A DNA stretch of 64,000 bases from Halococcus hamelinensis 100A6 (lineage in GTDB: Archaea; Halobacteriota; Halobacteria; Halobacteriales; Halococcaceae): positions 62,001 through 126,000 of the forward strand of contig NZ_AOMB01000003.1 of NCBI RefSeq assembly GCF_000336675.1, in the 5' to 3' direction. Below are positions 1-19,156 of this stretch, in pieces. The notes under the pieces were generated by a model, which did no database searches, was not told the DNA's origin, and worked only from the letters and a program-made list of their open reading frames with translations. The position numbers and the translations under genes were made by a program. Numbering within the stretch: position 1 is the first letter of the stretch; every line of letters begins with the position of its first letter.

Positions 1-234
1 GTCCGGCGGGTCGTAGTGGGCGGCGACTCGCAGGATAGCGAGCGACCCAAGCATGACCGCGGGGATGAGCGCCACCGCGATCGCTTTCGGGACTACTGTA
101 TTGGGGTCGCCACTCGCCGAGAAGTGAATCGCTACCTGTGAAGGAAGTTGACTCCAGAGCGTGAGACTGCCCAGCAGCGTGAGGGTGGCGATAGCGGTAC
201 CCACTAGATCAACGCGATTCGGGCGGAGGTTCAT
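1..234 (-). CDS. DUF1648-type membrane protein, N-terminal part (runs off the window)
   Basis: The frame opens with ATG at 234 and stays open to base 1, giving 78 residues of an incomplete protein. A hydrophobic segment (about residues 9-27) is followed by LPSQVAIHFSASGDPNTV and a second hydrophobic segment. The LP..V..HF...G.P pattern is typical of DUF1648, found in SdpI-like integral membrane proteins whose role is mostly unknown. It is transcribed away from the regulator at 339, with about 100 bp between them. Only the N-terminal half is visible, so membership of the full SdpI family cannot be tested here. Confidence 0.7.
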   Translation of the reverse strand, partial: MNLRPNRVDLVGTAIATLTLLGSLTLWSQLPSQVAIHFSASGDPNTVVPKAIAVALIPAVMLGSLAILRVAAHYDPPD

Positions 235-338
235 GCTCTCTTGATGATCTTCTCATGGTGGCGAATTGAATCTTTGGCCGATTCAGGTTTGTAGTTATCC
301 GAGAAGTTTCAATACGCTACCCGGTAGACGTGTATCCA

Positions 339-1457
339 ATGGACGCCCGCGAACTGATCGAGCACATCTCTCGAAGCGACCGACGACTCGACATTTTGTG
401 TGCGCTGCGAGAGCGCTCGGCGAAACCCGGCGAGTTGGCCGACCGCGCCGACGTCGAGCGCACACCTGTCTACACCGCTCTCGAAGACCTCGAAGAATCC
501 GGGGCTGTCGCCTCGATCGACGGCCGGCGAAAGCTCACCGCCGCTGGCGATATTCCCGTCGCCGAGACGCTCGACGCCTGCGAAGCCGTTGGCCGCGAGG
601 CGATCTTCCACCTCGCCTCCTCGACCGATAACAATCGCCTGCGGATTCTCGGCGGGCTCGCCGACTCGCTCTCGCGTGGTGAAATGGTCCACGACGACTC
701 CTACCCATCGCGTTCGACGATTAACCGAACGCTGGAGGATTTCGAGGCGTTCGGCTGGATCACGCCCCGCCCGAACAGCACGCTCACGAAAGCAGGCCGG
801 GCGGTGTACGATGCCTACACCGAGCTCGATCGCGTCGTGAACATCGTGGTGGATAAGCTAGTGTATCTCCGGCACGTCGACCCCTCGAAAGTCGACATAC
901 CCATCGACCTGATCGACGACGCGCGAGTGGTTCGCTCGCGTCCGAACCGGCCACAACGGGCGGATGCTCATATGCGAGAGCGAATCAACGAGGGCTTCGG
1001 CCACGCGAAGGTTTTTGCGAGCTACTATTCCGAAGCGGAGGTCACGCCGATGTTCGATCAGGTCGAGCAGGGTTCGTCGTGGGAAGCGGTCACGCCGCTG
1101 CCCTCGCACGCTCCACTACCCGACAGCCCGCCGGAGATCAAGCATTTTCGGATGGGGCTCGGCTCCGAGCGCGTCGAGTGGACCATCTATCCCGACGACT
1201 TGCCCATAGATATGATTCTGTTCGACAGCGATCGCGTTCTGTTGGGGACCGACGTTGAGCTCGAAACCACCCGCACCGACGCGATCCTCGATTCGACGAA
1301 TCCTTCACTGATCGAGTGGTCGCACGACCTCTACGATGAGCACAAAAAGCGGGCGTCGACACCGCTCGACTATCTGCTCGACCCGATCAAGGAGAAGGGT
1401 ATCTACCGGGCGTTGCGATTGGATTGGGCTCGCGGTCGGACGGCCGAGAACGACTAG
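339..1457 (+). CDS. Two-winged-helix transcriptional regulator (copy 1)
   Basis: A 372-residue predicted DNA-binding protein. Residues about 8-65 form a winged helix (SAKPGELADRADVERTPVY then a recognition-helix-like TALEDLEESG), and a second one lies near residues 100-150 (RGEMVHDDSYPSRSTINRTL). The C-terminal half resembles the ligand or effector part of archaeal FilR1-like regulators; that is inference from layout. An upstream in-frame ATG exists at 330, but 339 matches the start of its paralogue at 2525, which is closely similar over its whole length. Its stop codon overlaps by 4 nt the stop of the convergent small membrane gene, exactly as in the second copy. Likely controls neighbouring DUF2071 genes (inference). 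Confidence 0.85.
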   Translation: MDARELIEHISRSDRRLDILCALRERSAKPGELADRADVERTPVYTALEDLEESGAVASIDGRRKLTAAGDIPVAETLDACEAVGREAIFHLASSTDNNRLRILGGLADSLSRGEMVHDDSYPSRSTINRTLEDFEAFGWITPRPNSTLTKAGRAVYDAYTELDRVVNIVVDKLVYLRHVDPSKVDIPIDLIDDARVVRSRPNRPQRADAHMRERINEGFGHAKVFASYYSEAEVTPMFDQVEQGSSWEAVTPLPSHAPLPDSPPEIKHFRMGLGSERVEWTIYPDDLPIDMILFDSDRVLLGTDVELETTRTDAILDSTNPSLIEWSHDLYDEHKKRASTPLDYLLDPIKEKGIYRALRLDWARGRTAEND

Positions 1458-1639
1458 CTGGTTGGTTCACCATCTGGTTCGGCAACGGTTCGCTCTTGCC
1501 ATAGCACGACGGCCCAGAGAATTGCCATAAGCCCACAAAACCCGCCGAACACGTAGTTGCCCAAAGAGATGACGAATACACAGAGGCCGGCGTGACCGAG
1601 CACAACTGCTACCTGCGCCCACTTTCTCCGTTCGCTCAT
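1454..1639 (-). CDS. Small two-TM membrane protein
   Basis: A 61-residue protein with a short basic N-terminus (MSERRKWAQ) and two hydrophobic segments, roughly residues 9-26 and 31-47, then a polar tail. It overlaps the end of the upstream DUF2071 gene by 4 nt (ATGA), so the two are probably co-translated, and it converges on the regulator with a 4-nt overlap. No family is recognised. It may be an accessory of the DUF2071 protein, suggested only by coupling. Confidence 0.6.
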   Translation of the reverse strand: MSERRKWAQVAVVLGHAGLCVFVISLGNYVFGGFCGLMAILWAVVLWQERTVAEPDGEPTS

Positions 1640-2433
1640 TGCTCAATGGGCTCCGGTACTGTCTTCGGAAGCTCTCGCAGCCGCTTGGCGGCCATATACT
1701 GCCGAGAAGAGTAGTTGAAAACCGGCGACTCGGTGGGTTCGGGCACGCCGGCGGCCTCGAACAGCGTGTTGGTGGTGATCTCGGCGTCGACGTCGGTCAG
1801 CGCCCACGGTCGGTGGTCGGCGGCTCCCGCAAACATCGACGTTCCCGTATTCGTCTGCCCTGTTCGAGAGCCGCCCTCGGTCGTTCCCATGACCTCCGAA
1901 AGCCGACGAAACTCCGGGCCGGCCTCGAAATAGTAGTTGGTGCGCTCGATTAGGAACTCCTCACGGCTGCCTTCCTCGGCGAACCCGCCTTCGTGGAGAT
2001 CCTCGGGTCGGTAGGTCGCGGCGAAGCGGGCGGGCGTCCCACCCCGGCGCTCGCGGTAGCTCTCGACCGACCGCGTTCGCTGGCTGGTGTCGATGTCGAC
2101 GTCAGCGTTGTAGTAGGGAATCCCGAAGCCGTTGCGAGCCAGCCACGAGGAGAGTTGGCCGTCCATTTCGAGAGCGATGAAGTAGATGCCCGTCTCGTCG
2201 CCGTGTGAGACGTAGGTGCGGAGGTTGATCGATGGGAGAGAGGGATGATAGGGCACGGCGCGAACCCGAGCGCCGGCGATGTCGACGACGAGCACGGTAA
2301 TCCACGCGCTCCCATCGAAAGTATCGATCGAGAGCGGGTCTGGCACGACCGACCGTAGCTTCTCGGCTGCGATCGGCCAATGGGCAAAGAGCACGTCCCG
2401 AAGCATTACCTCGGCCGCTGGCTTCTCGCTCAT
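1636..2433 (-). CDS. DUF2071 (YqjF-like) protein, copy 1
   Basis: A 265-residue protein of the DUF2071/YqjF family, whose biochemical function is unknown. Visible family patterns are the N-terminal FAHWPIAAEKLRSVVP, the central SINLRTYVSHGDETGIYF, the EFLIERTNYYFE segment and the C-terminal VFNYSSRQ. The ATG at 2433 was preferred to one at 2553 because the paralogue at 5090 starts at the same place (MSE.P.AEV.LRDVL) and because a GAGGAG ribosome site and a TTTATG box lie just upstream. It is divergent from the second regulator (2525) and co-translated with the small membrane gene downstream. Confidence 0.85.
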   Translation of the reverse strand: MSEKPAAEVMLRDVLFAHWPIAAEKLRSVVPDPLSIDTFDGSAWITVLVVDIAGARVRAVPYHPSLPSINLRTYVSHGDETGIYFIALEMDGQLSSWLARNGFGIPYYNADVDIDTSQRTRSVESYRERRGGTPARFAATYRPEDLHEGGFAEEGSREEFLIERTNYYFEAGPEFRRLSEVMGTTEGGSRTGQTNTGTSMFAGAADHRPWALTDVDAEITTNTLFEAAGVPEPTESPVFNYSSRQYMAAKRLRELPKTVPEPIEQ

Positions 2434-2524
2434 ACTCCTCTTTGACTGGAATCGAACATAAACATCCGTCTGGTGGCGAGCGAACCGACAATCCTCAAGA
2501 CCCCCCACGGCAGAAAGGAATCGC
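2434..2524. promoter_or_regulatory. Divergent promoter region, DUF2071 copy 1 / regulator copy 2
   Basis: A 91-bp space between two divergent starts. On the minus strand a GTTTATG box (2457-2463) lies 24-30 nt before the ATG at 2433, the expected place for a haloarchaeal TATA box with a short leader. The layout suggests that the regulator controls the divergent gene, which is inference. No clear palindrome was seen. Confidence 0.45.
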
Positions 2525-3634
2525 ATGAACGCGCGGGAGCTCATCGAACACATCTCTCGAAGCGACCAGCGTCTCGCTATTCTCCGGGCGCTGCGAGAGC
2601 GGTCGGCGAAACCCGGCGAATTGGCCGAGCGCGCCGGCGTCGATCGAACACCCGTCTACACCGCTTTAGAGGATCTCGAAGAATCCGGGGCGGTGGCCGC
2701 GATCGAGGGCCGCCGGAAGATGACGGCGGCAGGCGACGTCGCGGTGCGCGAGACGGCGACGGCGTGCGAAGCCGTTGGCCGCGAGGCGATCTCTCATCTG
2801 GCCTCCTCGACGGACAACAACCGCTTTCGCGTTCTCAGTGGGATCGACGACGGACTCTCGCGGGGTGAAATGGTCCATGACGATGCCTACCCGTCGCGTT
2901 CGACGATCAACAGGGCAATGGAGGATTTCGAGGCGTCCGAGTGGATCACGCCGCGCCCGGAGAGCATGGTCACGAAAGAGGGAAAAGAAATTCTCGACGC
3001 CTACGAGGAATTGCATCGCGTGGTCGGAATCGTCGTCGAGAAGATCGCGTATCTTCGGCTCGTCGATCCGAAGAAAATCGAGTTCCCGATCGAGCTGATC
3101 GCCGACGCCGAGGTGGTCGAGTCGCGTCCGAACCGACCCCAGCGCGCCGACGAACACCTCCGCCAGCGGATGCTGGAAGGCTTCGATCACGCCCGAATGT
3201 TCTCGCGGTACTACTCTGAGGCGGGCGTCGAAACCATGCTACGGGCGCTCGACGAAGGTTCGACGTGGGAATCGGTGTCGCCGCTGCCCTCGCACAACCC
3301 GCTGCCCGACAGTCGCACCGAGATCCGGCACTTCCGAGAATGTATCGCCGCTGATGGTGCGGACTGGCGAGTCTACCCCGACGACCTCCCGATCGACCTG
3401 ATCATCTTCGACGACGACCGCGTGCTCTTTGGGTCGGACGAAGCTCTCGAAACCACCCGTCGGGATGCCATGCTCGATTCGACGAATCCCGCACTTATCG
3501 CGTGGGCGACCGAACTGTTCGAGGACTACCACCAGCAGGCTTCTACGCCGCTCGATTACCTGCTCGATCCGGTTCGAGAGAACGGGCTTTACAAAGCTCT
3601 CCGGCTGGATTGGGCGCGCGACCGTTTCAGTTAG
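2525..3634 (+). CDS. Two-winged-helix transcriptional regulator (copy 2)
   Basis: A 369-residue paralogue of the regulator at 339, alignable from MNARELIEHISRSDQRL to the C-terminal LDYLLDPV...LYKALRLDWARDR without large gaps. It has the same first winged helix (SAKPGELAERAGVDRTPVY) and second one (RGEMVHDDAYPSRSTINR). It is divergent from DUF2071 copy 1 and its stop overlaps by 4 nt the stop of a convergent membrane-protein gene. The likely role is control of the adjacent DUF2071 or membrane genes. The conservation of both copies, with mostly conservative substitutions, suggests that both are functional. Confidence 0.87.
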   Translation: MNARELIEHISRSDQRLAILRALRERSAKPGELAERAGVDRTPVYTALEDLEESGAVAAIEGRRKMTAAGDVAVRETATACEAVGREAISHLASSTDNNRFRVLSGIDDGLSRGEMVHDDAYPSRSTINRAMEDFEASEWITPRPESMVTKEGKEILDAYEELHRVVGIVVEKIAYLRLVDPKKIEFPIELIADAEVVESRPNRPQRADEHLRQRMLEGFDHARMFSRYYSEAGVETMLRALDEGSTWESVSPLPSHNPLPDSRTEIRHFRECIAADGADWRVYPDDLPIDLIIFDDDRVLFGSDEALETTRRDAMLDSTNPALIAWATELFEDYHQQASTPLDYLLDPVRENGLYKALRLDWARDRFS

Positions 3635-4020
3635 TTACTGTTGGCTCGGCGGTAGAGGTAGAGGCGTCCGGGAATCGCACTGACGAATGTGGCGAGCATG
3701 ATCAGGACGGTCCACATCGGAATGAACTGGATAGCTACCTGTATTCCGATGGCGGTGGAGAACAGAAACACGAATTTGAAGCGCTCGCTCTCCCACATTC
3801 GCCGTCTTACGGTCGTTAGCGAGACGAGCAGCATTGCAGTACCGAGCATGATGCCGAGAACTATCGAGACGGCGAGTTCGGCGGTTGTCGGAGTGATTTC
3901 AAAAAAGGGCTCCCAGAAAGCAAACGCGCCAAAGAGCGTGGTTGTGAGCAAGCACCAGCCGAGGTCATGCCGGAGTGCCCTTCTCGAACCGGGCGACCAC
4001 TGCTCGGAAGACGTCGACAT
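3631..4020 (-). CDS. Four-TM membrane protein
   Basis: A 129-residue protein with about four hydrophobic segments (near residues 20-38, 46-65, 82-98 and 101-119) after a polar N-terminus. No family is recognised. It occupies the position equivalent to the 61-residue membrane gene of the first block but is not obviously its homologue. It converges on regulator copy 2 with overlapping stops. Confidence 0.6.
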   Translation of the reverse strand: MSTSSEQWSPGSRRALRHDLGWCLLTTTLFGAFAFWEPFFEITPTTAELAVSIVLGIMLGTAMLLVSLTTVRRRMWESERFKFVFLFSTAIGIQVAIQFIPMWTVLIMLATFVSAIPGRLYLYRRANSN

Positions 4021-4063
4021 CGTTACCAGAGAATTGTAGCCACTCCCACAAATAACCGTGCGG

Positions 4064-4243
4064 TCAGCGGTAGAGTTCGTAGCCGCTCATGGCCGCGACG
4101 AGGAGAAATGCGAGAAACGCGCCGACCGACCAGATGCTATCGTAGTCCTGTAAAAGACCGACGCCGGTCGCCAGCGCGGCGAGCAACATTGCACCCGTGA
4201 CCAGCCACAGTCGCCGGCGATCGATACTCCGGGAACGGTTCAT
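4064..4243 (-). CDS. Small two-TM membrane protein
   Basis: A 59-residue protein beginning MNRSRSIDRRRLWLV, then two hydrophobic stretches separated by the polar loop QDYDSIWSV. The ATG at 4243 was chosen over a much longer open frame because the upstream extension is arginine/serine-rich shadow sequence of the neighbouring gene. No family is recognised. It sits between the four-TM gene and DUF2071 copy 2 on the same strand. Confidence 0.5.
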   Translation of the reverse strand: MNRSRSIDRRRLWLVTGAMLLAALATGVGLLQDYDSIWSVGAFLAFLLVAAMSGYELYR

Positions 4244-4313
4244 AGCGCAGTAGAGAATCCGACACCTGAAATAGCTAATCGAGAGCCGGACTCCAGATCG
4301 CTCTACGAGGATT

Positions 4314-5090
4314 TCAACCCTGCGTCGGTATCGAGAGCTCGCGGATTCGCGCCATTCGCATGAACTGCTCGCGTGCGTAGTTGAATCGTGGCTCGCCCTC
4401 GGGCTGGGGTATCTCGGCGGCCTGAAAGAGCGTTCCTGCATCGACGGTCCCCTCGGCGTCGGTGATCTTCCACGAGTCGTGTTCGGCGGCTCCCGCGAAC
4501 ATTCCCGATCCGCTGCCGTCCGGTGAGCCAACACCCGTGGTCGTCCCGAGCATCTCGATGGTCTGGCGAAGCCGCGGCCCCGCTTCGAAAAAGTAGTTGG
4601 TGCGCTCAGTAAGGAACTCGTCGAGCGACCCGCTCTCGATCGCGCTCACGTCCTCGGTATTCGGGCGTACTGAGGCCGAGAATCGGGCCGGCGTCATGCC
4701 TCGCCGATTCCGCGTGCTCTCGACCGTGAACGCTCCATCGTGGTAGCCCCGCTCGATCTCGGCGTGGTAGTAGGGCATCCCGAAACCCAATCGACCGAAC
4801 CACGACGAGATCAGGTCGTCGATCTCGAGATCGAGAAAGTAGACACCCGTCTCCTCCCCGTGTGAGACGTAGGTTCGGAGGTTGATCGACACGGCCGAAG
4901 GCCGGCGCGGGACGTGACGCACCTTCGCCTCGGCGAGCTTTACCGACACCGCACTGATCCACGCGCTCCCGCTGTGGGTGTCGATCGAGAGCGCATCGGG
5001 GACCAGCGCCCGGAGTTTCTCGGGCTGGATCGGCCAGTGAACGTAGAGAACGTCGCGCAACGCAACTTCGGCGAGCGGCCGCTCGGACAT
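4314..5090 (-). CDS. DUF2071 (YqjF-like) protein, copy 2
   Basis: A 258-residue paralogue of the gene at 1636-2433, sharing VHWPIQPEKLRALVPDALSI, SINLRTYVSHGEETGVYFLD, EFLTERTNYFFEAGP and the end FNYAREQF. The family is uncharacterised; a soluble cytoplasmic protein is likely, since there is no signal or TM segment. The ATG at 5090 matches copy 1, and the longer frame upstream is not family-like. Unlike copy 1 it has no divergent regulator next to it; the 450 bp upstream appear empty. Confidence 0.85.
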   Translation of the reverse strand: MSERPLAEVALRDVLYVHWPIQPEKLRALVPDALSIDTHSGSAWISAVSVKLAEAKVRHVPRRPSAVSINLRTYVSHGEETGVYFLDLEIDDLISSWFGRLGFGMPYYHAEIERGYHDGAFTVESTRNRRGMTPARFSASVRPNTEDVSAIESGSLDEFLTERTNYFFEAGPRLRQTIEMLGTTTGVGSPDGSGSGMFAGAAEHDSWKITDAEGTVDAGTLFQAAEIPQPEGEPRFNYAREQFMRMARIRELSIPTQG

Positions 5091-5539
5091 ACTCGCTCTC
5101 GGTGGGTGTCCTCCTAACCAGTTCCGACCGCGGAATCTGAGGGGTTCTCGGGCGTACTGCCCGCCCAGCGGGTGTCGAGAGCGTCTGTCTGCCGTCCTTC
5201 GCTCTCCGGCGCGCTCAAAGAGAATGTCAAACACCTGCATGGATGTTCAGGGGGTACACAGTGTTTGGGCCATGCAAATATGACCCCGACGCGATTCGAG
5301 GTGAATAGAGACGCCGGGTGTCTCTGGCATCCGTCCCGGCCGTCTCGACCAAAAACAAATTGCAATGGCACAGCAGCGGCGGCTTGCACGCCCCACCGCA
5401 ACCGATCCAACTCGCACCACGACCTCCCGCTAGGAGGATTCGTTGGTCGCGTGCAAGCCACATCGTGCAGTTTCGTTCCCGACGGCCCTTCCGGGTCGTC
5501 ACCGTTCCTCTCCCCCACCGAGCAGTGGTCAGAGCTGAC
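5091..5539. other. Gene-poor interval
   Basis: About 450 bp without a convincing gene. Open frames here are shadows: they lack family-like sequence and change character midway. No tRNA, repeat or clear terminator was found. Because DUF2071 copy 1 has a divergent regulator, this is where a third regulator copy would be expected, but no remnant is visible. Confidence 0.4.
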
Positions 5540-6070
5540 CTACTCGTCGAGGTCGACTGAACGAACCCGTCCAACGAGATCGCCGTTTCTGAGTGTGAGG
5601 TCATCGCGTGCTTCTTCGCTCGAACGCACGACGACGGGCGTTCGGTACTCGAACTGGCCTTTGACCCGCTGGGCGGCCGTGACTTGGACGTCGCTCGGGA
5701 GCTCGCCGAAGCCGTCGTAGAACACCAGCGTCTCCTCGGGCACGCGGGAGGCGGGAATCTCCTCGCTGGTGGTGTCGGGCGCGCACTCGACGGTGAGCAC
5801 GTCCCGGTCGCCCGCTGCTTTCTCAACGATCGCCTCGACCTCGGCGTCGGTCCCGTCGATCAGGTGGATCACGCTCCCTGCCCGAAGTGCGTACTCGATT
5901 TCCTCGCGCAGTTCTCCGGGGCGATTGGATATGCCGATCGCCTCATCCATGAGAAGGCGCTTCTCCTCGGATGTGAGCGGTCGCTCCTTCTTTCGCAACT
6001 TCGCTACCTGTTCTTCGATGGGGTTCTCTTGGGTGGTCTCCTCGGCGTCCATCTCGTTGTCGTCGATCAT
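5540..6070 (-). CDS. Hypothetical protein linked to the Mre11-Rad50 cluster
   Basis: A 176-residue acidic soluble protein. The N-terminal third is charged and helical (EEQVAKLRKKERPLTSEEKR); the rest alternates short strands and loops, including VLTVECAPDTTSEEIPASRV and a C-terminal DLTLRNGDLVGRVRSVDLDE. No known family is recognised. Its ATG overlaps the stop of the MBL-fold gene (6067-6070, ATGA), so it is the last gene of that transcript. Function unknown; a role with the nuclease operon is suggested only by linkage. Confidence 0.7.
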   Translation of the reverse strand: MIDDNEMDAEETTQENPIEEQVAKLRKKERPLTSEEKRLLMDEAIGISNRPGELREEIEYALRAGSVIHLIDGTDAEVEAIVEKAAGDRDVLTVECAPDTTSEEIPASRVPEETLVFYDGFGELPSDVQVTAAQRVKGQFEYRTPVVVRSSEEARDDLTLRNGDLVGRVRSVDLDE

Positions 6071-7794
6071 GGTGATGTCACCTCGGCTTTCGCGCTCTCT
6101 CGAAGCGTGACCGCAACCTCCTCACCGTGTTTGAGGTCTGGTACGTCGCCGTCCTCGGTATCGAGCAGCCGGAGCATGGTCACGCCGTCGCCGGCGTCGA
6201 CGACACGCGCTTCGACTGTTTGCTCCTCCGGTTCGAGGTGGCTCTCGATCGCGTCGAGTCGGTCGTGTATCGACGTGAGCGCGTCCGCATTGGGGTCTGC
6301 TTCGTCCGCTGTCGTCGCTTCCGGCGTCGATGCCGAGACAGCGGGCTCGGTGGGTGTTGGCTCGCTCTCGGCGCTCTCGTTGGTCTCGTAGTCGGGACTC
6401 GTTACGTCGCCACTCGGCCCGCTGAGTCGGCTCTCCAGTGCGTCCACGTCAAGACCCTCCGCCGCGAGGTCGGGCTCGGCACGTTCGCACGTCGGCAGCA
6501 AGAGGCCGGCGTCCGCACTCTCCAGTGCGGTCCCGAACCAGTTGCGTTGGGTGGGGTCGCCACCATTTCGGACGAGGGCGATGCCCTCGCTGGTCATCCA
6601 CGGCGGCGGCGACCACTCGCCGGCCTCGAAGATGGGGTACGCCTGTCGGTCGTCAGTCGCCCACACGAAGGCGTGGTAGTTTTTGTTCTTGTATCGGTCT
6701 CGGCTCCGGCCGTGTTGATGGGTCACGACGACCTGTTCGGGCGAGAGCTCCTCGACGAGTTCGTCCACCGCGTACTCGGTCGGGTGGGCGACGACCTCGA
6801 AATCGTACATCGTACACCGGGCCGAGGCGATCGGCGGGTCGCCACCACCGAGTATCTGGACGAGCGTGGCGCTCTCGTCGTTCTGAATGGTCTCGAATAG
6901 GCGGCCCGAACTTCCCTCCGTCGGGACTTCCGGGCCGGCGATCGTCACCGTCTCGGGACCGAGCAGCGCATCGGGGTCTTCGTACTCCGGTATCGACTCG
7001 ACACCCCGGAGGTTGTACCCGAGGTCATCGTAGAGCTTCGCGGCCTGTCCGACGAGGTTGATCGAGAGCCGCCGGTCGAGGCGCTCGCCGAGGTGGGAAA
7101 GCAGGTAGGCGTACCGAACGCCCATCAACCCCGAGGCACTCACGAGCACCGACGACCCGGCGTAGGCACGCTTGGCGATCGTGCCGATGGATTCGGTGAG
7201 CGCGTCGGTGTAGCAGTCGTTGGTCGCGCCCGTGAGAAAGAGGGCATCGACGTCGACCCCGAGGTCGCCGTCGAGGCCGGGATTGCCAGCGGCACGCTCG
7301 GGCGTCCAATCCCCGGTGGCGAGCACGGTTCGCTGCTCACCGCCGTCGTCCTCGTACTGCATCACGAAGCCCGCCGCACCGGGTACGTGGCCCACAGGAA
7401 CGGGCGCGACTCGAACGCCACTTAGAGGGGACGCCCACTCCGTGATCGGTTCGAGCGCACCGAGGACTGCCTCGGGGTCGCCGAGGTCCGTCGCGGCGGA
7501 GCGCTGGGCTTCGGTGAGGACGGTTTCGAGCATCGAGGCGGTCGCCTCCGTTGCGTAGATGGGTGCGCCGTCGCGATGGTTCTCGGCAAGCGAGAGGTAG
7601 TGGTCGGCGTGGGCGTGGGTCAGGAGGATTGCCGTGAGGTACTCGTCGCTGTCGAGCATGGCATCAAGGTCGACCTCCGGGCCGGCGTCGACGAGAATAC
7701 AGGCGGTTTGGTCGTGTTCGCTCTCGCGCTCACACCGGATGAGGAACGACTCGCTCCCGGCGTCCGGGTTGGCGTGCTGGAAGGAGAGTTTCAC
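6067..7794 (-). CDS. Metallo-beta-lactamase-fold hydrolase, beta-CASP nuclease-like
   Basis: A 575-residue protein. The zinc-binding motif LTHAHADH lies near residue 60, a further metal-site His near GHVPGA and an Asp in ATGDW. Around residues 330-370 the pattern VVAHPTEYAVDELVEEL then VVVTHQHG resembles motifs B/C of beta-CASP RNases and DNA-repair nucleases (CPSF/Artemis-type). The last 150 residues are an acidic linker (many E/S/T/P) and a small C-terminal domain. It lies downstream of mre11-rad50 on the same strand, about 125 bp after the zinc-ribbon gene, and overlaps the next gene by 4 nt. DNA- or RNA-end processing is plausible but inferred. Confidence 0.8.
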   Translation of the reverse strand: MKLSFQHANPDAGSESFLIRCERESEHDQTACILVDAGPEVDLDAMLDSDEYLTAILLTHAHADHYLSLAENHRDGAPIYATEATASMLETVLTEAQRSAATDLGDPEAVLGALEPITEWASPLSGVRVAPVPVGHVPGAAGFVMQYEDDGGEQRTVLATGDWTPERAAGNPGLDGDLGVDVDALFLTGATNDCYTDALTESIGTIAKRAYAGSSVLVSASGLMGVRYAYLLSHLGERLDRRLSINLVGQAAKLYDDLGYNLRGVESIPEYEDPDALLGPETVTIAGPEVPTEGSSGRLFETIQNDESATLVQILGGGDPPIASARCTMYDFEVVAHPTEYAVDELVEELSPEQVVVTHQHGRSRDRYKNKNYHAFVWATDDRQAYPIFEAGEWSPPPWMTSEGIALVRNGGDPTQRNWFGTALESADAGLLLPTCERAEPDLAAEGLDVDALESRLSGPSGDVTSPDYETNESAESEPTPTEPAVSASTPEATTADEADPNADALTSIHDRLDAIESHLEPEEQTVEARVVDAGDGVTMLRLLDTEDGDVPDLKHGEEVAVTLRESAKAEVTSP

Positions 7795-7918
7795 TGTACG
7801 ACCTCCCGATTCGGGTCAGGATTTTCTCGTGGCTCTACGTTGACCTCACAGTTCTCAGTTGTGTTGAGTCTCATCACGTCTACCGAGAATTACCGCGGAA
7901 TCCGGGATAAGCCTCGGC

Positions 7919-8170
7919 CTACTCACGCCATAAGACCGTTCCGTCGAGGAGGTACGACCCCACCTCGCAGGTTTCGTCCATACACGCGACTTCGGTGACG
8001 CTCTCGGCGTCCGGTAGTGGCTCGCCGGCGACCTCGCACTCCGGGCACTCCGGGACTTCCTCAACTGGTTCGCCCGTGAGATGCACCTCGAAGTCGCCGT
8101 CCGAGGATGGGTAGATAGCGACGTTCTCGCCCTCCGCCGGATCGCGCTCCGAGTCGGATTCGTCACTCAC
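7919..8170 (-). CDS. Small zinc-ribbon protein after rad50
   Basis: An 83-residue acidic protein starting with GTG at 8170, whose first bases overlap the rad50 stop (GTGA). Two cysteine pairs, CPEC at about residue 41 and CMDETC near 64, suggest a small zinc ribbon. Between the coupling to rad50 and its size it could be a small accessory of the Mre11-Rad50 complex, but no family name is recognised and this is inference. It is separated from the MBL gene by 124 bp. Confidence 0.72.
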   Translation of the reverse strand: MSDESDSERDPAEGENVAIYPSSDGDFEVHLTGEPVEEVPECPECEVAGEPLPDAESVTEVACMDETCEVGSYLLDGTVLWRE

Positions 8171-10968
8171 GACTGGCCACCATCCGAGAGCGCGAGCTCG
8201 CCGCCACTCCCGTCGCCGCCCTCGTAGTCCTGTCCGGCCAGCCGCATCTCCACCTGACTCGCCGAGCCCTCGTCCTTCGTGACGAGACACTCGTGGTCCG
8301 CGCCGTGAATCAAGCTCTCGTCGTGGCTCACGACGAACACCTGTGCGACGTCCCACTCTTTGATGGTGTCGAGCATCTGTTCGAGTTGCCCGACGTGACC
8401 TTCATCGAGGAACGTCGTCGGCTCGTCGAGGATGAACGGCGGAAGCGTCCCGCCAGCACCCCGGATCTGGGCGATGAGACGATAGATGCCCGCCCGGAGG
8501 GCGAGGTTCACGACCGCGCGTTCGCCACCGCTGGCGTTGGCGGGATCTTCCATCGTCCCATCATCCCGGAGCAGCTTGATGTCGTAGTCGTAGGTATCGT
8601 AGGTCTCGTCGTGTTCTTCGGTGATTCTGACCTGCTGATAGCTGCTGTTCTTGTAGATGTCTTTGAAGATGTCGTTGGCGTACTCGTTGAGATAGCCGAG
8701 GTAGGTTTCCCGAAGATCGGATTGCACCTCGTTGTAGATCGAGAGCGTGTGCTCGATGTCCTCCCGAACGCTGTCGGCCCAGCGTTCGCGGTGCTCTAAC
8801 TCGGCGATGTTCTCGTGGAGGTCACGCAGGTTGTCGAGCGTCGTCTCCACGCTGGCGATCTCGCCCCGGAGGTCTTCGACCTCGCTTTGAGCCTCGTCAC
8901 GCCACTGGCGATGATTTTCGATGTCGTTCTCGTACTCATCGATCCACTCCCGAAGCTCCTCGGGATCATACTCGCCGAGTTCGTGCTCTAGATCCTCCTT
9001 TTCGGCTTTGTAGGTCTCTTTCTGGTCGTCGAGGCGCTCGATTCGGTCGTCGGCGTGACTGATGGCCTGCTGGTGCTGGTCTATCTTGGTCTGGCGGTCG
9101 TCGATGGCGTCGTACTTCTCGTCGGCTTGTTTCACAACCTGTCGGCTCTCGTTGATCGCCTCCATCTCCGCCTCGGCTTCCTCGAAGGCTTCCTCGCGCT
9201 CCTCGACGGTGGCTTCGAGGTCGTCGATCTGCTCGTGGAGGTCGGATTCGTCGCCTTCCAGTTCCTCGATCTCCTCTCGGAGTTCGTCGCGGGCCTCGCG
9301 GAGTTGCTCGGCGTCCTCGCGGGCCTCCACCAGCGTATCGGTGTAGAAGTCGATGGCGTCGTTGACCGTGTTTCGGATGCCGCTCAACTGGCCGCTGCGG
9401 ACTTGCAGTTGCTTCTGATCGTCCTGTAGGGACTGGATCTCGGCTTCGACGTTCTCGCGTTCGCTCTCTAGCTCGCTGATTTCCTCGTCGACGTGGGCCT
9501 CCTCGACGGGCTGGCCACACTTGGGACACTCGCCCGCCTCGCCGAGTCCCTCGAACTCCTCGATCTGGTCGTCGATGGTCTCGACTTTCGATTCGAGTCG
9601 GCCGATTTCGCCGGTGAGCTCGTTGATCTCGTCGCCGAGTTCCTCCCGGCGCTCGGGGATTCGTTCTCGTGCAAGCGGGGCGAGCGCGTCCGTCGCCACG
9701 CTGAGGTCTATCTCGCCCTCGTCCATCCCGAAGTTCGCTTCCACCTCGTATTCGTCGAGTGTCTCGGCGAGGTCACTGAGTTGCTCGCGGAGTTCGGTCT
9801 CGTGGTCCTCGACGTCGCTCTCGGCCTCGTCGATCGCTCGTTCCTGTTCTTCGGCCTGCTCACGGGCCTGCTCTAACTCGTCGGTGACGTCACCGAGGTC
9901 GGATTTGGCATCCAGCAGGTTGTCGCGGGCGTTGTTGTATTCATTTTCGAGCGTGTTCTTCTCTTTCTGGGCGGCGAGTACGTCGTCGTGGGCCTCGCTA
10001 TGGGCGTCGGCCGTGCTCTCGGCGCTCGATAGGTCGTACTCCGTCTCCTCGTCGAGCGTATCGATCTCGTCTCGGAGGTCGTTGATCGCCGAGTTGTGCT
10101 CGCCAATGGTATCCTTCGCCTCTTGGCGTTCCTTCCGGGCCTCGATCTTCGAGTCCTTCGCGTCGTCGATTTGGCTCTGTTTGTTTTCCCGGCGTTCGGA
10201 GAGTGTGTCGTACCGTTCGAGTTGGTCGGTGTATTTGTTGAGTTTCGGGACAAGTTCCTCGTCGATGTGGTCCTGATGGCGCTGTACGAGGTCTTTTTGC
10301 TCGTCAATGTCGCTTTTGAGGCTCTGAACCTCCTCGATATAGCCGTCTTCATCTTTCTCGTATTCTTCGAGGTTCGCCTCTTGGCCTTTCCGGCGTTCCT
10401 GACACCGCTCGTAGGTGCGCCGAGCGCCGCGTCGGGTGAGTTTGGCGCGTTCGATGTAGCCCTCGATCTGATCGAGGCCGAGTAGGCTATCGATCATCTC
10501 GCCGCGGTCGTTCGCCTCTATGAGACGATCGATCTCGCCCTGCTGGACGTAGGCCGAGCTAGAGAAGTCGTCTTCGTCCATCCCGAGGAGATTCGTGACT
10601 TCTTGCTGCACATCCCGAATCCCCGAGACGGGATCGGAGAGCACCGGCGAGGAGAGCGTGGCCTTCGACGCCGCGCCGCTGTCGGGACTGGGCATCTCCC
10701 ACTCGACAGTGTATTCGGTGTCGTCGACGACGAAATCCAGTTCGACTTTGCCTTTGTCCGCGCCGCGGCGCACGAGGTCGCCGACGTTGAACGAGTTGCC
10801 CTCGACGTTGGTGATGTTCGAGAGAAAGAGCCCGCCGAACATCCCGATCAGCAGGGAGGTCTTCCCCGCGCCGTTCTCGCCGTGGATGAGGATGGTTCCC
10901 TCGGGAAACTCGACAGTCTGGTCCTCGTAGCTGCGGATGTTCTGGAGTCGGATTCTGGTGATCTTCAT
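8167..10968 (-). CDS. rad50: DNA double-strand break repair ATPase Rad50
   Basis: A 933-residue SMC-like ATPase that works with Mre11 at DNA ends. Walker A is at residues about 28-40 (IHGENGAGKTSLLIG). Two very long charged coiled-coil arms flank the zinc hook CPKCGQP at residues 481-487. The ABC signature ASGGERAVVNLALR and Walker B with FILDEPTTFLDEGH are near the C-terminus, and a D-loop/switch histidine follows in VVSHD. The start ATG shares one base with the mre11 stop (TAATG), a tightly coupled operon. The length is normal for archaeal Rad50. Confidence 0.97.
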   Translation of the reverse strand: MKITRIRLQNIRSYEDQTVEFPEGTILIHGENGAGKTSLLIGMFGGLFLSNITNVEGNSFNVGDLVRRGADKGKVELDFVVDDTEYTVEWEMPSPDSGAASKATLSSPVLSDPVSGIRDVQQEVTNLLGMDEDDFSSSAYVQQGEIDRLIEANDRGEMIDSLLGLDQIEGYIERAKLTRRGARRTYERCQERRKGQEANLEEYEKDEDGYIEEVQSLKSDIDEQKDLVQRHQDHIDEELVPKLNKYTDQLERYDTLSERRENKQSQIDDAKDSKIEARKERQEAKDTIGEHNSAINDLRDEIDTLDEETEYDLSSAESTADAHSEAHDDVLAAQKEKNTLENEYNNARDNLLDAKSDLGDVTDELEQAREQAEEQERAIDEAESDVEDHETELREQLSDLAETLDEYEVEANFGMDEGEIDLSVATDALAPLARERIPERREELGDEINELTGEIGRLESKVETIDDQIEEFEGLGEAGECPKCGQPVEEAHVDEEISELESERENVEAEIQSLQDDQKQLQVRSGQLSGIRNTVNDAIDFYTDTLVEAREDAEQLREARDELREEIEELEGDESDLHEQIDDLEATVEEREEAFEEAEAEMEAINESRQVVKQADEKYDAIDDRQTKIDQHQQAISHADDRIERLDDQKETYKAEKEDLEHELGEYDPEELREWIDEYENDIENHRQWRDEAQSEVEDLRGEIASVETTLDNLRDLHENIAELEHRERWADSVREDIEHTLSIYNEVQSDLRETYLGYLNEYANDIFKDIYKNSSYQQVRITEEHDETYDTYDYDIKLLRDDGTMEDPANASGGERAVVNLALRAGIYRLIAQIRGAGGTLPPFILDEPTTFLDEGHVGQLEQMLDTIKEWDVAQVFVVSHDESLIHGADHECLVTKDEGSASQVEMRLAGQDYEGGDGSGGELALSDGGQS

Positions 10969-12749
10969 TAGCTATCATCTCCTTCGCTGGCGAGGTCAGC
11001 GAACGACGTCTGACTGCTCGCGCCGTCGCTCTCGGCTTTCGTGCTCTCGCTGTCGTCGTCGGTGTCTTCATCCTCTGTATCGCTCCCGCCGTCGGTGGCC
11101 TCGGCTTCGACGGCCTCGCCTTCGCCTTCGTCGGGCGTGGGCGCGGTCTCGGCGCGTACCTCCGGTGGCTCGCCCTCGACTGGTTCGTCGTCGGCGTCCG
11201 CTTCCGTCTCGGCCTCGACGGGTTCGGGTTCGTCTCCGGTGTCGGCTGGCTCTGCGTCCGCTGGGGCCGGCTGGTCGCCGCTCTCATCGCTCTCGGCCTG
11301 TGCGGCGTCACTATCCCCACCTCCGCCCTCGACCGCCTCGACGGCGGCCTCGGCCTGCTCTCGGAGACGCTGTGCCGTCTCGATAGGGTCGGCGTCGTCG
11401 GGCTCGTTCGGCCCACCCGGCCCGGCGTTGGCGACTCGTTCGGCGAGCGGTGCGACGTCCTCCTCCTCGTCGTCTTCGGACTCGGGCTCGGCTTCCTCGT
11501 CGGCTTCCTGTTCGCCCTGTTCGGCGGCCTCATCGCTCTCGACAGGTTCCTCGGGGCTCTCGTCCGGCTCCTCGGCGGGACCATCGCCCAGCACGGCGTC
11601 GGGATTCTCGCTCTCGAAGGCGTCGTCCTGCGCTTCGGAGATCATCTGGTCGGCGTTATCATCGAGGGCCGCTGTCGAGGTGGCCTCGTCGCGGACCATG
11701 CTCTCCACATCGAGAGCGGGCTCGCTGAGGCCGGCTTTGGCGAGTCGCCGGTCGATCAGGGTATCGGGGTCTTCGACGTCCGCTGTCGGGTCCGCCCCTA
11801 TATCGAGATGTTCGCGGCCTCGGTTGTCGTCGACGCGCGCCACTGCCGCACCCCTATCGAGCGCGATCTCGTGAACGTCGCTCGCCGTCAGTGACGTTCG
11901 CTTGCCGGTGAGGCTCACGACCGCTACGGCGTCCGTGAGGTCGACCTCCTCGAACTTCGAGCGGGCGTGTTCGTACCCATCGTTCTCCTCGAAGGTGATC
12001 GGTATCTGCTCGAAATCCCGCGTGTCGAGGGTGACGTGGCTCCGCGACATCGTATGCCCAGAAAAGTCCGAAAGCATCGTGATGGTGCGTGGGCCTTCCT
12101 CACCGGCGCTCCCGCGTTCGGTGGACCCAGCATACCATACATCGACGCCTTTGACGTCCTCGCTGACGGCCTCGTGATAATCCCCGAGCGCGAGCCCGTC
12201 GATCTCGAGATCCAGTCGGTCGATGACCGACTCGGCGGGGTACTCCGCCATGATCTCCGGTACGGGTGGGTGGAGCAACTGGTGCATACACAAGAGGCGA
12301 TAGGCGTCGTCGTTCTCGGGAGGTTCGAGCTCGAAATCAGTGGTCTCCCACGCCGGGCTCGGCACGGCGTCGATGCCATAAATCGCCACTGCTTCCTCGC
12401 CCTCACCGACCATCGTCGGGGAGGAATCGAGGCGGCTGGCCGTGCCGGTGTAGGCCATGAGATCGAGCCACTGATCGTCCATCTTTCGGTCGTGGTTCCC
12501 GACGATCCCGAGGAATGGGATACCAGCGTCGTCGGCACGCCGGAGGACGTTGATACACTGGTTGACCTGCGGGAGCGGCGGCGTCCGCCGGTGAAAGAGG
12601 TCGCCGGTGTGAATGATGGCGTCGACGTCGCGCTCGATTGCGCGCTCGACTGATTGGGCGAAGGCGTCGGTGAAATCCTGCCTCCGAATGTCGCTGCCGT
12701 ACTGGCGATTCCCGAGGTGGGTGTCGCTGATGTGGGCGATGTGGACCAT
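10968..12749 (-). CDS. mre11: DNA repair nuclease Mre11 with long acidic tail
   Basis: A 593-residue protein. The calcineurin-like nuclease core (about residues 1-330) shows SDTHLG, HTGDLFH and GNHD metal-binding motifs. The later GHxH motif reads GDYH near residue 190, so its first His is replaced by Asp. The last 200 residues or so are extremely acidic and low-complexity (E/D/A/P/S), far beyond the usual Mre11 length, and probably disordered; similar tails suit high-salt cytoplasm. It is the first gene of the operon with rad50. Mre11 processes broken DNA ends together with Rad50. Confidence 0.95.
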   Translation of the reverse strand: MVHIAHISDTHLGNRQYGSDIRRQDFTDAFAQSVERAIERDVDAIIHTGDLFHRRTPPLPQVNQCINVLRRADDAGIPFLGIVGNHDRKMDDQWLDLMAYTGTASRLDSSPTMVGEGEEAVAIYGIDAVPSPAWETTDFELEPPENDDAYRLLCMHQLLHPPVPEIMAEYPAESVIDRLDLEIDGLALGDYHEAVSEDVKGVDVWYAGSTERGSAGEEGPRTITMLSDFSGHTMSRSHVTLDTRDFEQIPITFEENDGYEHARSKFEEVDLTDAVAVVSLTGKRTSLTASDVHEIALDRGAAVARVDDNRGREHLDIGADPTADVEDPDTLIDRRLAKAGLSEPALDVESMVRDEATSTAALDDNADQMISEAQDDAFESENPDAVLGDGPAEEPDESPEEPVESDEAAEQGEQEADEEAEPESEDDEEEDVAPLAERVANAGPGGPNEPDDADPIETAQRLREQAEAAVEAVEGGGGDSDAAQAESDESGDQPAPADAEPADTGDEPEPVEAETEADADDEPVEGEPPEVRAETAPTPDEGEGEAVEAEATDGGSDTEDEDTDDDSESTKAESDGASSQTSFADLASEGDDS

Positions 12750-17258: not shown

Positions 17259-17456
17259 ATGGAGATCCGGGGACGCTCGCTCCGAAATCGTGTGTTCAAT
17301 GCCGTGTTCGCCACTGTGCTCATGTTTATCGGCGCGAGTCTCGCCGAGGGCTCGCTTAACTGGACGCTCCTACTGATCGGCGTGCCGTTGCTACTCGTCC
17401 TCGAACTGCTCGGTGACGTCCTCGGTCGACGCATCCGGGAGTGGCGAGCATCATGA
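17259..17456 (+). CDS. Small two-TM membrane protein at head of the paralogue array
   Basis: A 65-residue protein (MEIRGRSLRNRVFNAVF start) with two hydrophobic segments at about 13-30 and 34-52 and a basic end (GRRIREWRAS). The ATG at 17259 follows the CRISPR-like array by 85 bp. Its stop overlaps the next ATG (ATGA), so it is co-translated with the first paralogue-family member, although its own sequence is shorter and not clearly related to the family. Confidence 0.65.
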   Translation: MEIRGRSLRNRVFNAVFATVLMFIGASLAEGSLNWTLLLIGVPLLLVLELLGDVLGRRIREWRAS

Positions 17457-17746
17457 GCACTCGGATCGCCGGTATCCCGACGCTGTATCTCTACAACGGG
17501 TCGATTATCGCCTACGGCGGCGCGTTCTTCCTCGACAATCTGACCGCGATTCTCGACGGAACCGCTGGGCTCGCGGAGCAAGTCGCTGTGTTTGCTGCGG
17601 CGCTGTTGGTCGTCATTGGGGGCTACGAACTACTCACGAACGACCCCGCCGAGTACGATGCTGATACCCCCATCGTCGCGTTGCTGGTCGTCGGGGCGAC
17701 ACTAGTGCTGGCCAGCTACGCGATCGAGTTTCTCGCGTTGGGCTGA
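17453..17746 (+). CDS. Tandem-array small membrane protein, member 1
   Basis: A 97-residue protein with about four TM segments. It shares with later members an N-terminal LYLYNG-type motif (LYLW.G elsewhere) and the loop GYELLTNDPAEYDADTP, matching W.VR..NPAEFSKSAYW in members 6 and 8. A GTG 12 nt upstream is in frame but the ATG overlaps the preceding stop (ATGA) and is favoured. Family function unknown; an integral membrane protein in the cytoplasmic membrane. Confidence 0.72.
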   Translation: MSTRIAGIPTLYLYNGSIIAYGGAFFLDNLTAILDGTAGLAEQVAVFAAALLVVIGGYELLTNDPAEYDADTPIVALLVVGATLVLASYAIEFLALG

Positions 17747-17790
17747 GGCTCATACTGTGGATTTAAGCCTCGACACGCAAAGGCGAGAGT

Positions 17791-18081
17791 ATGGAACAGA
17801 ACGCGGGGCGCTTCTCTCCCTCGATCGAATACGGGTTGGTGATCGTCTTCGCCCTCATGGGTGTCGCCGTCGTGGGCTCGGGTGCTCTCGGTTTCTATCT
17901 CGGTATCACGGCCCTCTCGAATTACGTGCTCGTGACGGCCGGACTCGTGATGGTCGGGACGACGGCCTTCGAGATCGTCACTGGCGACCCCGGCAGATAC
18001 ACGGGGACGAACGGCTGGATCATCGCTCTCGTCGTAATGGCGATGGTGTCGTTGGCTGCGATCGCGCTACAATTCCTCTAA
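17791..18081 (+). CDS. Tandem-array small membrane protein, member 2
   Basis: A 96-residue protein with four predicted TM segments. The third loop reads FEIVTGDPGRYTGTNGW, in the same place as the NPAEF/DPAEY loop of the other members, so it is a divergent paralogue. Its upstream region has a GATTTAAGCC box about 30 nt before the ATG instead of the TTGTGGGATG element, so its control may differ. Function unknown. Confidence 0.72.
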   Translation: MEQNAGRFSPSIEYGLVIVFALMGVAVVGSGALGFYLGITALSNYVLVTAGLVMVGTTAFEIVTGDPGRYTGTNGWIIALVVMAMVSLAAIALQFL

Positions 18082-18101
18082 ATCCACGACGTCCGGCGCG
18101 A

Positions 18102-18115
18102 CTTTTTGTGCGATG
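18102..18115 (+). promoter_or_regulatory. Array promoter element (weak match)
   Basis: CTTTTTGTGCGATG ends 18 nt before the ATG at 18133. It is the most diverged copy of the element found before members 4-7 and the 25.2-kb copy, but has the same spacing. Confidence 0.5.
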
Positions 18116-18132
18116 CCGGGGCAACTCTCGAT

Positions 18133-18423
18133 ATGCTCGGTATTCTCGATCGACTCTCGCTCGAACCACTGTATCTGTGGGTCGGGCTCGTTCTCGGCGT
18201 CGGTGGGGCTGGCATTTTGTACGGCGTGCTCTTTCTCCGTGGGGCCGGCTCGCTGGCCGTCGGGGCCTGCCTGCTGGTCGGCGGCGCGCTCAACATCCTG
18301 CTCGCCGTCCGCGAAGGACTGTCCCGCGTTCCCGACGAGCTCGGCCTTCGGGAGTGGGCGACGATCGCCGTTTCCGCTGTAGTCTCGATCGGTGTCGCCG
18401 TCGGGCTCGTCTTCGGGGCCTAA
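18133..18423 (+). CDS. Tandem-array small membrane protein, member 3
   Basis: A 96-residue membrane protein starting MLGILDRLSLEPLYLWVGLV, clearly sharing the DRL...LYLW.GL start with members 4-7. Three to four hydrophobic segments follow, but the acidic/aromatic loop after segment 3 is changed to REGLSRVPDELGLREW. The ATG at 18133 is favoured by the 18-nt spacing to the shared upstream element. Function unknown. Confidence 0.72.
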   Translation: MLGILDRLSLEPLYLWVGLVLGVGGAGILYGVLFLRGAGSLAVGACLLVGGALNILLAVREGLSRVPDELGLREWATIAVSAVVSIGVAVGLVFGA

Positions 18424-18435
18424 ACTGTCGCCGGT

Positions 18436-18449
18436 ATTTTTGTGGGATG
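18436..18449 (+). promoter_or_regulatory. Array promoter element
   Basis: ATTTTTGTGGGATG, preceded by GTCGCCGGT, ends exactly 18 nt before the ATG at 18467. It covers the -31 to -18 zone where a leaderless haloarchaeal promoter places its TATA box. Confidence 0.6.
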
Positions 18450-18466
18450 CCGCTTGATGGGTCGGT

Positions 18467-18769
18467 ATGAGCGAGACGATCGACCGCCTGCCGATTCCCC
18501 GACTCTACCTCGGACTCGCTCCAATATTGCTCGTTGGTGTGGTCTATACCCTCGCCGGCGTCGTGGCGTTCCTGACGAATACGGAACCGGCGTATGGGTG
18601 GATGATCCCCGTGTTCGGAGTGCTGTTCCTCGGGATTTCCGGCCACAAGCTCTACACGACCTCGCCCGACGACGACTCGGTAGCGGACTACTGGATCGTG
18701 CTCCAGTATTTCTTCGCGGTCGTTCTGCTGGTGTCGTATGCGAGCGGTGCCGGCCTGATCAGTCTGTAG
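18467..18769 (+). CDS. Tandem-array small membrane protein, member 4
   Basis: A 100-residue protein with four TM segments, starting MSETIDRLPIPRLYLGLAP. The loop after segment 3 (HKLYTTSPDDDSVADYW) corresponds to R.RNPAEFSKS.YW of members 6 and 8. It is preceded by the shared promoter element. Probably an integral cytoplasmic-membrane protein; no catalytic residues are visible. Confidence 0.75.
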   Translation: MSETIDRLPIPRLYLGLAPILLVGVVYTLAGVVAFLTNTEPAYGWMIPVFGVLFLGISGHKLYTTSPDDDSVADYWIVLQYFFAVVLLVSYASGAGLISL

Positions 18770-18793
18770 TCGACGAGAGCGTTCGTCGCCGGA

Positions 18794-18807
18794 ATTTTTG
18801 TGGGATG
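18794..18807 (+). promoter_or_regulatory. Array promoter element
   Basis: ATTTTTGTGGGATG with upstream GTTCGTCGCCGGA ends exactly 18 nt before the ATG at 18825. The sequence is nearly identical to the copy at 18436. Confidence 0.62.
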
Positions 18808-18824
18808 GCAAGCAAACCCGAGCT

Positions 18825-19118: not shown

Positions 19119-19142
19119 GAAATCGGCGCGTTCGTCGCTGGG

Positions 19143-19156
19143 ATTCTTGTGGGATG
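19143..19156 (+). promoter_or_regulatory. Array promoter element
   Basis: ATTCTTGTGGGATG with upstream GCGTTCGTCGCTGGG ends exactly 18 nt before the ATG at 19174. Confidence 0.62.

Follow-up and report, generated by a model that had tools for sequence, protein, structure and literature searches.

The second mre11-rad50 pair of Halococcus hamelinensis 100A6 is half of an accessory mre11-rad50-nurA-herA cassette

The mre11 and rad50 genes located in a stretch of 64,000 nucleotides from the haloarchaeon Halococcus hamelinensis 100A6 (contig NZ_AOMB01000003.1, here termed C3, positions 62,001 to 126,000; hereafter the window) are the second such pair of this genome and constitute one half of a mre11-rad50-nurA-herA gene cassette. 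Mre11-Rad50 is usually regarded as a core repair complex. The identity of the cassette, its second copy, the split between its halves, its mobility and the motifs and neighbourhoods of the genes were computed, and they favour the reading, at a probability of roughly 0.6, that the pair belongs to a mobile accessory cassette that was split by an insertion of ~9 kb on a plasmid-like contig and whose selective value lies in the handling of mobile or viral DNA. An earlier note, made from the letters of the window, had combined mre11 and rad50 with three further genes, one of them encoding a metallo-beta-lactamase (MBL)-fold nuclease, into a possible extended end-processing system. The mre11-rad50 operon and a beta-CASP-type neighbour are indeed present, but the regular partners of the pair are NurA and HerA and not the MBL protein, which is an occasional one. 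The note is thus partly borne out, correct as to the kind of system (end processing) but largely incorrect as to its members.

The second Mre11-Rad50 pair and its nurA-herA half

Two mre11 genes were detected in the genome, one on contig C3 and one on contig C40. The C40 set has the order mre11-rad50-nurA-herA and is followed by a PAN-type ATPase gene, a label assigned from a domain match, with a gene for a B-family DNA polymerase on the opposite side. The Rad50 proteins of C3 and C40 share 43-51% identity in the main matched pieces. A recent within-genome duplication of mre11 was rejected, since the two Mre11 proteins are only 56-58% identical and fall into separate sub-clades. The closest relatives of the C3 proteins are encoded in the same-genus genome G007 (Mre11 87-88% identical, Rad50 78%). 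All five genes considered in the window are located on the minus strand (12749-5540) and are listed here with the window part of the stretch that parts them from nurA:

10968..12749, minus strand: mre11 of the accessory cassette; 593 amino acids, phosphoesterase domain and an acidic tail of ~210 residues; Metallophos match, E 1e-11
8167..10968, minus strand: rad50 of the accessory cassette; 933 amino acids, with Walker A, CPKC zinc hook and signature motif; AAA_23 match, E 4e-21
7919..8170, minus strand: small protein with four cysteines; 83 amino acids; GTGA overlap with rad50; near-orphan
6067..7794, minus strand: MBL-fold hydrolase of the beta-CASP type; 575 amino acids; Lactamase_B and Lactamase_B_2 matches
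5540..6070, minus strand: 176-amino-acid protein, fold without assignment; ATGA overlap with the MBL gene; near-orphan
1..8166, both strands: window part of the ~9.0-kb separation of rad50 and nurA, from a nucleotide alignment with contig C3 of G007

The gene junctions described in the earlier note, namely TAATG between mre11 and rad50, GTGA between rad50 and the four-cysteine gene and ATGA between the MBL gene and the 176-amino-acid gene, are present in the sequence, and the four-cysteine gene and the MBL gene are separated by a gap of 124 bp. Inspection of sequence motifs revealed intact active-site motifs of Mre11 (SDTHLG, GNHDR and GDYH) and intact GENGAGKT, CPKC hook and SGGER motifs of Rad50.

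The other half of the cassette lies downstream of the window pair, on the same contig and strand and just left of the window: nurA at C3:59824-61128 (NurA domain, E 3e-14) and herA at C3:57870-59849 (HerA (DUF87) domain, E 2e-12). The four cassette genes thus share one contig and strand, but are not contiguous in this genome. The spacing between rad50 and nurA amounts to 9.0 kb (C3:61161-70176) versus ~320 bp in G007, the contig C3 of which is syntenic at the nucleotide level with both halves (75-78% over mre11-rad50 and 79% over nurA-herA). The 9.0-kb stretch contains the four-cysteine gene, the MBL gene, the 176-amino-acid gene and a duplicated module of helix-turn-helix (HTH) and DUF2071 genes, with genes on both strands. 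Since all four cassette genes occur together within the fetched stretch in 36 of 43 related accessory loci, an insertion in the window genome is the simpler reading, to which a loss of DNA in G007 could be an alternative. The duplicated module occupies window positions 339-5240, where genes for a FilR1-type HTH regulator, a small membrane protein and a DUF2071 protein occur twice in tandem, the first copy being labelled by eye.

The MBL gene and the 176-amino-acid gene are absent from the G007 cassette, and the four-cysteine protein has no convincing relative among 341 genomes, so that a conserved extended operon is not supported. The 'zinc ribbon' of the earlier note is based only on four cysteines in the pattern CxxC...CxxxxC, without any Pfam or NCBIfam family at its cut-off. 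Matches to this protein were obtained in 10 of the 341 genomes at E<=0.01, itself included, the best other match having an E value of 9e-4. The 176-amino-acid protein yielded no family match in Pfam or NCBIfam and no plasmid match at E 1e-3; relatives were found in 3 of 391 Halobacteria genomes at E<=0.001, its own genome counted, and its single-sequence structure model was unusable (predicted local distance difference test, pLDDT, 39.6).

With respect to the replicon, contig C3 carries ParA and Orc1/Cdc6 genes resembling plasmid genes, the Orc1 protein resembling a plasmid Orc1 of Halococcus dombrowskii at 82%, and it has a GC content of 55.5-57%, compared with 67% for the 20 kb that surround the copy on C40. 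Cassettes were also detected on the named plasmids pBNX82-4 of Haloferax alexandrinus and unnamed1 of Halocatena salina. Elsewhere in the window, a tandem array of seven similar-looking membrane proteins of 96-100 amino acids was observed at 17453-19824, one more copy following after 5 kb (25178-25477), as was a run of membrane genes at 39071-45738 that by eye resembles a multi-subunit Na+/H+ (Mrp-type) antiporter cluster.

Accessory cassettes across the Halobacteria

A survey of the 391 Halobacteria genomes yielded 44 matches of the window-type Mre11 in 40 genomes at E<=4.9e-78, a cut between accessory and ordinary Mre11 that was set after viewing the scores and gene contexts. Without the second copy of G302 and the G289 locus (L182), which has no rad50, and with the addition of locus L100 of G014, taken from outside the class sample, 43 loci were studied. 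Genes in the fetched loci were called by a simple custom script with visible errors, for instance the missed mre11 in L107, and some of the fetched stretches stop at contig or stretch ends. In a tree of 46 Mre11 rows, the 43 accessory rows were separated with a support of 100/100 from 3 ordinary haloarchaeal rows, a thin side of the tree that is drawn from four ordinary loci (L102, L103, L114 and L115), and a warning of long branches was issued by the tool. Different families share near-identical cassettes, L184 and L185 (families f2 and f5) being identical and L181 and L183 (f5 and f3) forming a further such pair; the cassettes have thus moved between families. Matches in viral contigs were restricted to distant Mre11 proteins and were not used.

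Additionally, different cassette types were found at the polB-PAN locus. Within the genus of the window, type A is present there in G000, G005 and G006 and type C in G004; the locus in G001 harbours type D with an extra gene encoding 228 amino acids, and the family members G015 and G017 have retained the ordinary pair. Seen against the flanking genes, the type A set points in the opposite direction to the other types, and this is more suggestive of replacement than of drift. Type D shows the order mre11-rad50-nurA-228 aa-herA (L107-L111), and the member of the extra family in L110 (227 amino acids) had no NCBIfam match. An apparent absence of Mre11-Rad50 from G001, G002, G003 and G009 was rejected, as the divergent type D set is present in these genomes. 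In related genomes, the locus as a whole (L047, L096, L098, L099, L110, L102 and L103) is occupied by different sets of mre11-rad50(-nurA-herA) that are not orthologous, and it is a likely replacement hotspot.

The ordinary haloarchaeal Mre11-Rad50 pair (NF041030 and NF041035) has its folds in common with the cassette proteins, as well as a motif V of Mre11 in the GDxH variant. The cassette proteins differ in belonging to a separate clade and in scoring far below the equivalog cut-offs, since the window Mre11 reaches 302-303.8 bits on NF041030 (Mre11_Halo; curated cut-off 550) and the window Rad50 431 bits on NF041035 (Rad50_Halo; cut-off 1000). Moreover, the ordinary loci L102 and L103 are without adjacent nurA-herA genes, unlike the cassette.

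In G007 and most accessory loci, the cassette comprises the same four families in the same order as the thermophile mre11-rad50-nurA-herA operon. According to PMC7776575, the nurA-herA genes of thermophiles are located in one operon with rad50-mre11, and HerA-NurA act with Mre11-Rad50. The haloarchaeal cassette differs from this operon by its patchy distribution, its occurrence as a sometimes plasmid-borne second copy and the split of the window copy by ~9 kb. A statement in the same source that HerA and NurA are absent from Haloferax volcanii contrasts with a match of the Pfam NurA model in our H. volcanii control. For the lineage leading to the ancestor of haloarchaea and Hikarchaea, PMC7599335 gives an inferred loss of nurA and a replacement of the herA and mre11 families, and a Natrinema genome is annotated in PMC9995536 with all four proteins, so that their presence in halophiles is on record. 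Among the top-ranked results from the open-access literature, haloarchaeal cassettes of mre11-rad50-nurA-herA that are mobile are the subject of no title or displayed abstract.

The MBL-fold protein and the distribution of its genes

The MBL protein contains the motif HxHxDH (residues 60-65), H136 and D162 along with H337 of motif B and H359 of motif C. Among 87 aligned proteins, the residues of MBL motifs 1-4 (D36, H60/H62/D64/H65, H136 and D162) are conserved in 94-99% and both H337 and H359 in 99%; the metal ligands with motifs B and C show 97-99% conservation. The HxHxDH motif, H136, D162 and the histidines of motifs B and C are shared with the RNA-type beta-CASP enzymes RNase TTHA0252, aCPSF1/CPSF73, INTS11 and RNase J. 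The window protein is unlike these enzymes in its own C-terminal region, its patchy and plasmid-linked occurrence and the missing acid of motif A, the Glu position being a Thr in the alignment to TTHA0252. A profile alignment placed H337/H359 in register with H389/H411 of an RNase J-like protein, with the same spacing of 22 residues though with low confidence in this region; the shorter default alignment ended before motifs B and C. RNase TTHA0252 was the best match in the PDB and INTS11 was also among the best-scoring solved relatives, whereas Artemis and SNM1A scored lower; a single-sequence structure model was unusable for a judgement of the clamp domain (pLDDT 36.7). On the account of PMC3095777, motif C is His in beta-CASP enzymes acting on RNA and Val in those acting on DNA (Artemis/SNM1). 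The designation of the gene product as beta-CASP-like agrees with the metallo-hydrolase motifs and with motifs B and C, while the 'Artemis type' of the earlier note is contradicted by His359 and is corrected here.

At E<=1e-15, the MBL family was detected in 100 of the 391 genomes. It is also present on 37 plasmid records, whereas phages and viral contigs yielded no relatives. Within the window's family, a full-length relative is present in only 2 of 18 genomes, and 12 more have weak matches. Those that were opened turned out, by reading, to be an RNase J-like gene in G003 and G017 and another small MBL gene in G013; the second MBL match of the window genome itself was likewise read as an RNase J-like gene. 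A scan of genome contigs gave distant MBL proteins and was not used, the pattern being too common.

The MBL loci were fetched mostly best-first and represent a part of all matches rather than a random sample. No accessory cassette was present in the stretch of 82 of the 88 fetched loci; the gene-neighbourhood survey suggested in the earlier note thus shows a placement mostly independent of the cassette, and the MBL gene was rejected as a conserved operon member. The six loci with both an MBL gene and an accessory cassette are the window and five genus-g9 loci of a single lineage. In four of the latter the MBL gene is adjacent and divergent to the cassette (its frame being broken in L148), in the fifth it is ~11 kb away, and these cassette-linked genes encode a different subfamily, 33% identical to the window MBL. 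A comparison of match positions by eye revealed no further pair of MBL and accessory Mre11 within 12 kb. A lone herA gene of the cassette type (37% to that of C40) lies divergently beside an MBL gene in L072 (9022-12692), where nurA was not recognised, and in L082 an ordinary polB-rad50 locus is located ~3-8 kb from an MBL gene, the Rad50 piece being 76% identical to the ordinary one of L102. MBL genes thus adjoin or neighbour end-resection genes in four separate settings and may therefore have a functional link to them.

Long versions of the MBL gene are accompanied by genes for vWA proteins in 5, for AAA-DUF4143 proteins in 7 and for prokaryotic Argonaute (pAgo) in 2 of 26 loci, and are also found near UvrD-PDDEXK and Mrr-like genes; vWA, AAA-DUF4143 and pAgo were found in none of the 56 loci with short versions. 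MBL and pAgo genes are at most 12 kb apart in four genomes (G105, G390, G377 and G084), as compared by eye. In L132, L137, L143 and L144, the long MBL gene and a vWA-domain gene overlap by a few bases, and genes for UvrD-PDDEXK or MkoA-like helicases are nearby, an arrangement that may represent an undescribed defence-type cluster.

Alternatively, the MBL protein could be a plasmid RNA-processing enzyme or toxin-like RNase that is unrelated to DNA ends and whose presence in the cassette is accidental. The histidine of motif C, the best-scoring solved relatives TTHA0252 and INTS11, the 37 plasmid records and the lack of pAgo, AgaP and OLD genes in all 56 short-MBL loci make this a serious contender, if one short of even odds. 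It is opposed by the neighbours of the long versions (vWA, AAA-DUF4143, UvrD-PDDEXK, Mrr-like and pAgo genes), which amount to a DNA-conflict setting, and by the end-resection genes nearby in the four settings, and enzymes with the His motif may still cut DNA. In the preferred reading, the gene most probably encodes a zinc nuclease in its own right, of the RNA-type beta-CASP group and from a plasmid-roaming, partly defence-associated family; it may be co-transcribed with the cassette without being a core part of it.

Possible roles of the cassette

As to activity, substrate and a role in defence, the following course may be proposed. The Cys-rich gene, the MBL gene and the 176-amino-acid gene would have arrived with the ~9-kb insertion. 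As in thermophilic archaea, Rad50 would bind and bridge DNA ends by ATP-driven clamping, Mre11 would nick and trim these ends, and HerA would translocate and supply NurA with a strand, whereby the cassette would resect or degrade free ends. Its selective value would then lie in the handling of mobile or viral DNA, either by destruction or by protection of the carrier replicon, over housekeeping repair. A role on mobile or viral DNA appears more likely because the cassettes are patchy, were transferred from family to family and are located partly beside genes for pAgo, AgaP-like PLD proteins, OLD ATPases and MBL nucleases.

Genes encoding pAgo are present in 60 of the 391 genomes, ten of which also have an accessory cassette. 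In four of these ten (G020, G081, G262 and G276, representing three lineages), pAgo is located at most 12 kb from the accessory Mre11, the expectation under uniform placement being 0.07 (P(>=3) 5e-5). AgaP-like PLD genes lie at most four genes from the cassette in 6 of the 43 loci, adjoining mre11 in L184 and L185, and the encoded proteins are 30% identical (E 1e-91) to the AgaP protein encoded beside pAgo in L121, where a long MBL gene flanks pAgo and the AgaP gene is on the other side of pAgo. OLD-type ATPase genes occur at most two genes from herA in 4 of the 43 loci. Altogether, pAgo, AgaP-like PLD or OLD genes accompany 10 of the 43 cassettes and none of the 56 short-MBL loci. In L184 (G020) and L185 (G081), the AgaP-like gene and the pAgo gene flank mre11-rad50-nurA-herA, the pAgo match of G081 being in two pieces. 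The pAgo-AgaP system (APAP) is described as a haloarchaeal defence system in PMC11442185, and the AgaP-like PLD genes near six accessory cassettes resemble it; the difference is that most cassettes have no nearby pAgo.

Several points weigh against the preferred reading. If all of the genes concerned lie in 15% of the genome, the expected number for pAgo proximity rises to 0.47 and P to 0.012. The ten loci with pAgo, AgaP-like or OLD genes stem from about 5 lineages and are not independent rows, and AgaP and OLD were chosen as partner families after they had been seen. None of the three is present in the stretch of 33 of the 43 cassette loci, and in 27 an MBL gene is missing as well. No match to pAgo was obtained in the window genome, Mre11 and NurA matched no PADLOC family at E<=1e-5, and the matches of Rad50 and HerA look generic. 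Cassettes of types A, C and D occupy the chromosomal polB-PAN locus at which relatives keep the ordinary pair, so that such cassettes are apparently able to do the housekeeping job. Finally, C3 comes from an incomplete assembly and is probably, rather than certainly, a plasmid.

An alternative is that the cassette serves plasmid-borne ordinary repair, as a backup for breaks caused by desiccation or radiation or for ends arising in plasmid replication, with no immune role, the defence neighbours reflecting shared accessory regions. This merits serious consideration, yet we would hold it to be rather less probable than not. The replacement of the ordinary pair by types A, C and D at polB-PAN in g1 genomes agrees with it, as do the joint action of HerA-NurA and Mre11-Rad50 in thermophiles (PMC7776575), the accessory-region bias, which weakens the P value for pAgo proximity to about 0.01, and the 33 of 43 loci without pAgo, AgaP or OLD; it is opposed by the patchiness and family-to-family transfer of the cassettes and by the absence of all three genes from the 56 short-MBL loci, many of which are also plasmid-type regions. 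A further and rather unlikely possibility is a modular system against mobile elements in which the cassettes provide the core for sensing and resection, pAgo, AgaP-like PLD, OLD and beta-CASP MBL proteins are interchangeable partners, and host lineages repeatedly exchange their end-resection module for such cassettes, for instance at polB-PAN. A direct partnership of Mre11-Rad50 and the MBL protein is unproven, and a single extended end-processing system of Mre11, Rad50, the Cys protein, the MBL protein and the 176-amino-acid protein, in which the MBL protein trims DNA ends like Artemis, is improbable: the shared strand, the overlapping starts and stops, the different MBL subfamily by the cassette in the genus-g9 loci and the MBL genes beside the lone herA of L072 and ~8 kb from the ordinary rad50 of L082 are outweighed by the lack of an MBL gene in the G007 cassette and in 37 of the 43 cassette loci, the RNA-type histidine of motif C (PMC3095777), an insert that has genes on both strands and parts the cassette from its usual partners, and the near-orphan nature of both small genes.

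The preferred reading, a mobile accessory cassette acting on mobile or viral DNA, was also compared with bacterial defence systems. Systems with SMC/Rad50-like proteins are described in defence (PMC10586767), and the window Rad50, a Rad50-like ATPase, matches the LmuB profile of Lamassu (LmuABC) with an E value of 5e-38. The cassette differs from Lamassu in its long Rad50, an intact DE Walker B motif and true Mre11, NurA and HerA partners, and a PADLOC scan covering the window MBL, the 176-amino-acid protein and Mre11 gave no match to LmuA or LmuC. Pairs of an MBL nuclease and a protease (HamM and others), which combine a ComEC-like nuclease with a trypsin-like protease, have been described in bacterial defence (PMC12799240), and the MBL-fold nuclease recurs beside unrelated immune systems in that description as well. 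The window MBL is unlike these proteins in being of the beta-CASP type, and no protease was recognised among the searched neighbouring window genes.

Complete end-resection cassettes of the haloarchaea thus behave as accessory genes, with second copies, plasmid carriage, transfer between families, differing sets at a single chromosomal locus of related genomes and, in part, immune-system neighbours. As judged from gene neighbourhoods, the occurrence of such mobile cassettes partly among defence genes is the more interesting and wider result. If the cassettes do act on invading DNA, they would directly exemplify, in archaea, the use of repair machinery for defence, and some haloarchaea are genetically tractable.

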